Origin: Halobacteriales archaeon YIM A00013
GTDB lineage: Archaea; Halobacteriota; Halobacteria; Halobacteriales; Haloarculaceae
Length of the DNA stretch: 64,000 nucleotides
Reading direction: 5' to 3'
Assembly: GCA_025041195.1 (NCBI GenBank)
Contig: JAKCFM010000002.1
Span: 124,001-188,000 of the forward strand
A program made the position numbers and the translations under genes. Below the pieces are notes generated by a model. That model ran no database searches. It had not been told where the DNA came from and saw only the letters and a program-made list of their open reading frames with translations. Numbering within the stretch: position 1 is the stretch's first letter; every line of letters starts with the position of its first letter. Shown here piece after piece: positions 21,020 to 21,847 of this stretch.

Positions 21020-21847
21020 ATGACGACAACACCCAATTCATCCGAGTCAATTCGTATCGCATTCATGTGCGTTCAGAACGCAGGGGGCTCACAGATGGCC
21101 ACGGCGTTTGCAGATCGGGAACGCGCCCGTCGTGGCCTCGACGATCGCGTTGTTCTCTTGACCGGTGGTACCCATCCAGCCGATCACGTCCATGAGGAGG
21201 TAGTTGACGTGATGGACGAGGTGGGCTTCGACCTCTCAGACCGAAGGCCGTGTGAGATCACGGTCGATCAGCTCCAGTCGTGTGACTATGTCGCGACGAT
21301 GGGCTGTTCGACGCAGGATATCAGAGCGGTCGGGAGCAAGGTCGCCGAGCTTCGCTCGGCTGCTAACCAGAATTCCGTGAATTCTGGTGATGTAGATGTT
21401 CGTGACTGGGCCCTCGACGATCCCGACGGCCAGAATCTCGAATACGTTCGCGAGATCCGCGAGACGATCGAAGAACGCGTCACGGCGTTGTTCGACGAGA
21501 TTGCTGGACTCTCCTGGAACGGTCTCTACGAAGGTTTCTCCATCAAGCGGCCACTCCTCTCAAGCGGCTTGTCGATGCCGGCTACGAAAACGATGACGCC
21601 CTCGATCTGCACCTACCATGGTACGTCGGCGAGTCGCTCACCATCGCGAACCTTCGACTTCCCTGCGCTCTTCCGATTCGACCCCGTACACCAACGCAAC
21701 GGCGTCTCTGAGACGGGTCTTCTTGACCACATCAAGAAGCACTACTACCAGAGTCATACGGATAGCAACCCGACTGAATTCGTCCCAGTCGGACCGAATA
21801 TCGATGTAACGATCCCTCATGGTCGCAAACGAACAGCAAGTGAGTGA
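21020..21847 (+). CDS. arsC: arsenate-reductase-like low-molecular-weight phosphatase with altered P-loop, insertion and fused tail
   Basis: Residues 1-164 match the LMW-phosphatase-type ArsC: IAFMCVQNAGGSQMATAF (nucleophile Cys17), CDYVATMGCS and DVRDWALDDPDG (general-acid Asp). Three oddities are seen. The P-loop C-x5-R has Gly23 (GGC) for the catalytic Arg (CGC), a one-base change. Residues of about 101-122 are an in-frame insertion built of two perfect hairpins. After about residue 164 the frame runs on into unrelated sequence ending in a relic of glutathionyl-hydroquinone reductase. Position in arsR-acr3-arsC indicates an original As(V)-reducing role. Activity is doubtful; it may be a pseudogene in progress. 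Confidence 0.75.
   Translation: MTTTPNSSESIRIAFMCVQNAGGSQMATAFADRERARRGLDDRVVLLTGGTHPADHVHEEVVDVMDEVGFDLSDRRPCEITVDQLQSCDYVATMGCSTQDIRAVGSKVAELRSAANQNSVNSGDVDVRDWALDDPDGQNLEYVREIRETIEERVTALFDEIAGLSWNGLYEGFSIKRPLLSSGLSMPATKTMTPSICTYHGTSASRSPSRTFDFPALFRFDPVHQRNGVSETGLLDHIKKHYYQSHTDSNPTEFVPVGPNIDVTIPHGRKRTASE
21344..21387. repeat. two adjacent perfect hairpins inside arsC
   Basis: Hairpin A is GCCGAGC/GCTCGGC (21344-21350 with 21354-21360, loop TTC). Hairpin B is CCAGAATTC/GAATTCTGG (21367-21375 with 21379-21387, loop CGT). Both lie in the segment that interrupts the ArsC family alignment between MGCSTQDI and DVDVRDWA. The insertion keeps the reading frame. It looks like a small palindromic mobile element rather than coding sequence under selection. 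Confidence 0.75.
21650..21847 (+). pseudogene. relic of a glutathionyl-hydroquinone reductase (YqjG/GST-omega-like) fused to arsC
   Basis: In the arsC frame, residues 215-268 read ALFRFDPVHQ, then LLDHIKKHYYQSHTDSNPTE and FVPVGPNIDVTIPHGR. This resembles the end of YqjG-type enzymes (LxRFDPVY...FDHIKRHYYxSHxxINPxxIVPVGPxxDFxxPH). The middle of the parent gene has been deleted between RFDPV and the DHIK block. The bases between about 21,515 and 21,650 are not assigned; another frame there reads LVDAGYENDDALDLHLPWYV. Confidence 0.7.

Follow-up and report, generated by a model that had tools for sequence, protein, structure and literature searches.

So far, discussion of palindromic insertions within genes has centred on Rickettsia and other bacteria, and in fungal mitochondria there are double-hairpin elements, in which two adjacent hairpins are dispersed through the genome. 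The superfamily of CGTC-tagged REPs, which includes RPE-4 and RPE-6 of Rickettsia and dRS3 of Neisseria, is characterized by stems of 8-9 bp that start with two A-T pairs, loops of 4-5 nt and CCA tails, and the survey of these repeats reports bacteria only (PMC3733652). Among the repeats of Haloquadratum walsbyi, the PATEs are IS605 derivatives with IS605 ends, and the SMRs are 80-110 bp long, have inverted terminal repeats and target IS605-type elements (PMC3119063). The window considered here is a stretch of 64,000 nucleotides from Halobacteriales archaeon YIM A00013 (the source genome), and a segment of its arsC-like gene is, with a probability of about 0.85, one copy of a dispersed, non-coding haloarchaeal insertion element, which consists of a pair of palindromes with a 5-nt linker and YGTC/GAYG tags and is inserted at TG without loss of the target. 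The element is an abundant archaeal counterpart of the intragenic palindromes of bacteria.

The double hairpin in the arsC-like gene

The ORF that contains the segment matches PF01451 with an E value of 3.8e-25, and its orthologues, 67-79% identical, were found in four genomes of the same genus. In an alignment with these four orthologues, the gene of the window is longer by exactly 51 bases, which keep the frame and contain no stop codon, at a site that is empty in all four (Table 1). The preliminary description had placed an in-frame insertion of about 22 codons, built of two perfect hairpins, at 21320-21387; the two hairpins and the open frame are confirmed, and the first hairpin is as it was described, but the second stem is one pair longer, the insertion is shorter at 17 codons, and both of its borders had to be corrected. 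In comparison with arsenate reductases of known structure, the insert is placed after the MGCS strand and ahead of the segment that leads to the DP loop.

Table 1. Features of the arsC-like gene and its double-hairpin insert (positions in the window)
Feature	Position	Strand	Basis
arsC-like ORF, host of the insertion	21020..21847	+	LMW phosphatase/arsenate reductase family, PF01451
Double-hairpin insert, TC-HP1-TGCTA-HP2-GATG, 51 nt = 17 codons	21342..21392	+	Empty orthologue sites; covariance-model match 21340-21392; family borders from exact full/empty pairs
5' tag GGTC (family consensus YGTC)	21340..21343	+	
First hairpin (HP1) GCCGAGC-TTC-GCTCGGC, 7-bp stem	21344..21360	+	Perfect inverted repeat
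Linker TGCTA	21361..21365	+	
Second hairpin (HP2) ACCAGAATTC-CGT-GAATTCTGGT, 10-bp stem	21366..21388	+	Perfect inverted repeat
3' tag GATG (family consensus GAYG)	21389..21392	+	

The segment leaves the reading frame open, as would be the case if it were a lineage-specific loop of ArsC or a palindrome formed by chance, but the orthologues do not have the segment and the double-hairpin unit is present at many unrelated sites. A covariance model was built from 31 copies of equal length, the arsC copy not being among them, and it scored the arsC insert at 57.8 bits (E 5e-16). Because the core pattern of the family is expected by chance only 0.02 times per shuffled window and the match to the model is so strong, a chance origin is excluded; the shuffles, the empty orthologues and the model score together leave the native loop and the chance palindrome with next to no probability. 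The contrary case envisaged in the preliminary description, that orthologous ArsC proteins would carry the same segment with no palindromic symmetry, did not materialize.

The CX5R loop of the window gene reads CVQNAGGSQMA, compared to CVQNAGRSQMA in the orthologues, an exchange of arginine for glycine. In the LMW phosphatase/arsenate reductase family this arginine is catalytic and the loop is invariant. Homology stops near 21514, and the remainder of the ORF is a run-on tail of about 110 codons. Because the catalytic arginine is replaced and the ORF runs on past the end of homology, the copy of the gene that carries the insert appears to have decayed and is probably not alive. Its in-frame insert is therefore weak evidence that a working enzyme tolerates such an addition, and the double hairpin would have added no function to a host gene in decay.

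A family of double-hairpin units in haloarchaea

Side-by-side comparison of the copies gives the plan YGTC-HP1-5 nt-HP2-GAYG, most commonly in the form TGTC-HP1-TGCTA-HP2-GATG, with stems that vary from copy to copy; the units range from 49 to 59 bp, and 57 nt is the commonest length everywhere. The existence of other copies, on which the preliminary description had made its reading depend, is borne out many times over in the source genome and in other haloarchaea. The core pattern TGCTAACCAGAA...TTYTGGTGA occurs in 43 of the 292 genomes of the class, compared to 0 matches for its reversed control, and a scan of 84,980 species located it at approximately 95 haloarchaeal loci, the few matches elsewhere being without a true HP1. 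Units that the covariance model recognizes at E<=1e-8 are present in 62 of 87 haloarchaeal genomes, which represent 36 of 44 genera, figures from a genome sample and a search pattern that are biased toward the TGCTAACCAGAA subfamily. The model finds at least 13 places with a unit in the source genome and returns 62 rows for Halocatena pleomorpha and 154 for YIM A00010, counts that include both strands so that one palindrome can be counted twice. A virus-borne element was considered and rejected, as viral contigs gave only two matches, both without HP1. A literature search, its coverage of papers being incomplete, found no description of such a haloarchaeal double-hairpin family, which is apparently undescribed.

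The units are found in intergenic DNA, within genes, in tnpB and as tandem arrays. The HP1 stem of the arsC insert is shared by copies from the YIM A00010 genome. It is also present in tnpB of the source genome, whose second copy of this HP1, in a decayed tnpB at C1:814.3 kb, is followed by the same linker and a matching HP2. This decayed tnpB (G000:C1:813877-814892, G000 being the source genome) contains at least three units. At G000:C2:59730-59960 a double-hairpin repeat of approximately 55 bp is present three times, nearly unchanged, in a tandem array between genes. Head-to-tail arrays of units whose modular hairpins differ occur in YIM A00010 and H. pleomorpha.

A hairpin at 113-137 of the window had also been pointed out for its similar borders. 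It is a single hairpin, AGCAAGAAC...GTTCTTGCT (113-136/137), which the model matches weakly as such (18.3 bits, E 0.001) and which is not counted as a member of the family.

Comparison with described palindromic elements

The haloarchaeal unit has in common with the CGTC-tagged REPs its short palindromes with variable stems and loops, an unpaired outer CGTC/TGTC tag, an arrangement mostly in head-to-head dimers, the presence of intragenic copies and the lack of a linked transposase gene. In most of 102 units, HP1 is preceded by TGTC and HP2 is followed by GATG, and the units collected, with a search pattern that required both hairpins, are head-to-head dimers. The haloarchaeal stems differ in starting with R-Y-C and being mostly 7-10 bp long, the loops are mostly of 3 nt (often TTC, TCC, GAA or GGA), and the linker is TGCTA, GGGCA or others; stems of 8-9 bp that start with two A-T pairs are not a feature of the haloarchaeal units, nor are loops of 4-5 nt with a CCA tail. 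By analogy, the unit would work like a CGTC REP dimer, which is the best match among known kinds, and it is not filed as a member of that superfamily.

The double-hairpin elements of fungal mitochondria resemble the unit by description and belong to a different domain of life with a different sequence. The Rickettsia palindromic elements are likewise comparable by description, being palindromic in-frame insertions that lengthen unrelated proteins while translation continues through them, whereas many haloarchaeal units are intergenic or disrupt the frame, and the two are compared by arrangement rather than by sequence. The likeness to them drawn in the preliminary description was nevertheless apt, given that RPE-4 and RPE-6 are in the CGTC-tagged superfamily (PMC3733652) and that exact CGTC...GACG tags are found in the source genome outside the window (C2:718438 and C2:74683); it has to be qualified in that many copies are out of frame, the arsC copy is probably decayed, and not all of the bacterial CGTC features are present. 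The PATEs and SMRs of H. walsbyi share with the unit a haloarchaeal host, the absence of a transposase and a palindromic structure, and the SMRs also target IS605-type elements (PMC3119063), but by their descriptions both are set apart from the unit with its size and its two hairpins. Of the haloarchaeal elements described, the PATEs come nearest, but their structure and the way they relate to IS605 ends distinguish them from the unit.

Since units are carried by many culturable haloarchaea, with empty sites, gene-breaking copies and residue-adding copies, it becomes testable how a hairpin pair of 50 nt moves, whether the extra residues are tolerated by its targets, and whether bacteria and archaea share a single origin of their CGTC-type palindromes.

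Empty sites and insertion at TG

At the 3' ends of tnpB genes of the IS605/IS1341 type, empty sites read CTTGAGGG|TGGGGCTT, compared to CTTGAGGG[TGTC-HP1-TGCTA-HP2-GA]TGGGGCTT at full sites, and plasmid records without the unit at this position are up to 91-94% identical over the matched pieces. Precise empty sites, as expected of a mobile element, are thus present both at the tnpB 3' ends and in the arsC orthologues. TG stands before TC in 87 of 102 units and after GA in 93 of 102. Judged from these sequences, the unit is inserted at a TG dinucleotide with no target bases lost; the resulting ambiguity of 2 nt may reflect duplication of TG or cleavage at TG, both of which are compatible. Stem sequences differ among most of the copies within one genome, and for this reason recent bursts of transposition are not seen. 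At this same TG, before TGGGGCTTTGATG, a plasmid of Natronorubrum bangense has a double hairpin whose sequence is unrelated to the family, and this hints at further subfamilies.

Pairing of the stems

Across the 31 copies, 98.9% of pair cells are complementary, there are 85 double-change cells compared to 23.5 in shuffles, and covariation is 0.375 compared to 0.110, values of which neither is reached in any of 500 shuffles. In the HP1 stems of 102 distinct units, 925 of 941 pairs are Watson-Crick, 11 are G-U and 5 are mismatches; the hairpin finder allowed G-U and prefers paired arms, so that mismatches are perhaps under-counted in this tally. Helices under selection as RNA are normally richer in G-U. 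Because the stems compensate with almost no G-U, the palindromes are most simply explained as kept in the form of DNA, either by a process at the DNA level or through recent origin. The strong covariation and the stable hairpins on either strand would also suit a functional RNA structure (a terminator, a regulatory RNA or an intron) under RNA-level selection, but this is very improbable given the near absence of G-U, the occurrence of units in both orientations relative to host genes and the difference in unit presence between orthologues. A search of Rfam gave no match to the double-hairpin unit.

Candidate agents of mobilization

The unit kept as DNA can form tandem arrays and may move as single-stranded DNA folded into hairpins. 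Y1 (HUH) enzymes handle the ends of IS200/IS605 elements and REPs as single-stranded hairpin DNA. An HUH transposase of the Y1 type, acting in trans, would be the likeliest agent of movement, a tentative assignment held at somewhat less than even odds. No mobilizing enzyme was found for the double-hairpin unit. Y1 transposases occur in 32 of the 43 genomes with the core and in 170 of the 249 without it, which is no association among the 292 genomes of the class, and the unit is present without a Y1 match in G183, G277 and G039; the presence of a Y1 transposase was therefore rejected as a marker of the element. As the presence of Y1 transposases does not follow that of the unit, the agent may be absent today in many hosts, or it may be another enzyme.

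The frequent location of units at tnpB 3' ends raises the question of whether they are "terminal-only" PATEs, that is, IS605-type remnants whose two end palindromes were joined by deletion of the core. In haloarchaeal PATEs the palindromes are near-terminal, inverted repeats and target duplication are absent, and core-deleted versions of 52 bp are described (PMC3119063), but these keep a single palindrome, whereas the unit has two different palindromes, a fixed 5-nt linker and paired tags that recur in arrays. Moreover, units are found inside IS elements at an internal site, apart from the end palindrome of the IS and with clean empty versions. By comparison with the PATE description (PMC3119063) and with the unit sites in IS elements, core deletion is not the best fit and is considered unlikely.

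Units within genes

When the flanks were rejoined around each unit and the best reading frames were checked, units were found to break conserved genes by stops or frameshifts in a GNAT acetyltransferase, a carbonic anhydrase, aldo/keto reductases of three genera and copies of the family DGP. In the aldo/keto reductases, the unit lies at the same FD|TAxxY motif and brings an in-frame TAG, the halves being otherwise intact. DGP is a multi-copy family of proteins of approximately 185 aa with a WCRPCQSTGCPHA cysteine cluster (for example, G000:C1 1942191-1942709, 54637-55155 and 1855210-1855731), for which a Pfam search gave no match. It has 11 matches in the source genome and up to 40 in a relative; outside the source genome, copies occur in G183, G293, G294 and G295, and among the 292 genomes of the class it was found only within the source genus. 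DGP was rejected as a mobilizer, as it is limited to one genus compared to the class-wide element, and the unit is in its flanks only at the loci of interrupted copies.

Interrupted DGP copies carry TAA or a frameshift and have dN/dS of approximately 0.08 in both halves. In the DGP tree, where some interrupted copies are mis-tagged as full, they do not form one clade and adjoin intact copies. If units were bypassed by ribosomes or removed from mRNA, interrupted genes could stay functional despite their stops, and the conserved halves of DGP, like the shared TAG site in three genera of aldo/keto reductases, would agree with such skipping. However, the orientation of the unit is not the same in all of these genes, a unit-bearing carbonic anhydrase is frameshifted elsewhere, such sites are rare (3 of 391 genomes), and the interrupted DGP copies are scattered beside intact ones, so that selection may predate the insertion and dN/dS proves nothing about bypass. 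That interrupted genes are kept in function by skipping is thus highly doubtful, and there is a slim chance that some hosts bypass the unit at the ribosome or remove it ahead of translation; if true, this would explain why the aldo/keto reductases (TAG) and DGP (TAA or frameshift) are interrupted at the same codon with both halves intact in several genera. The repeated sites in the aldo/keto reductases and DGP may be due to site preference, gene conversion or tolerated expression. Repeated sites of the kind seen in DGP could have arisen by gene conversion, a point against insertion of an element.

Other genes remain open through the unit, like the proteins with Rickettsia palindromic elements: tnpB, a GH3 glycosidase (in two genomes), an acyl-CoA synthetase, a ricin-type lectin, arsC and a DUF5781 gene. 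In the usual unit of 57 nt, the linker and tag contribute fixed stops to a single frame on each strand, and the other two frames stay open unless a stop arises in the stems. Because two-thirds of the frames on each strand avoid the fixed stops, a good share of insertions into genes, such as that in arsC, leave the frame open. Insert length modulo 3 was set aside as proof of frame selection, 57 nt being the commonest length everywhere, so that in-frame lengths are expected without selection. In annotation, units can mimic pseudogenes, fused ORFs and odd protein loops. The otherwise well conserved DUF5781 gene of H. pleomorpha has three units in a row, in frame, that add approximately 50 residues, and at the corresponding position the DUF5781 gene of H. 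salina carries an in-frame insertion that is different and further decayed.
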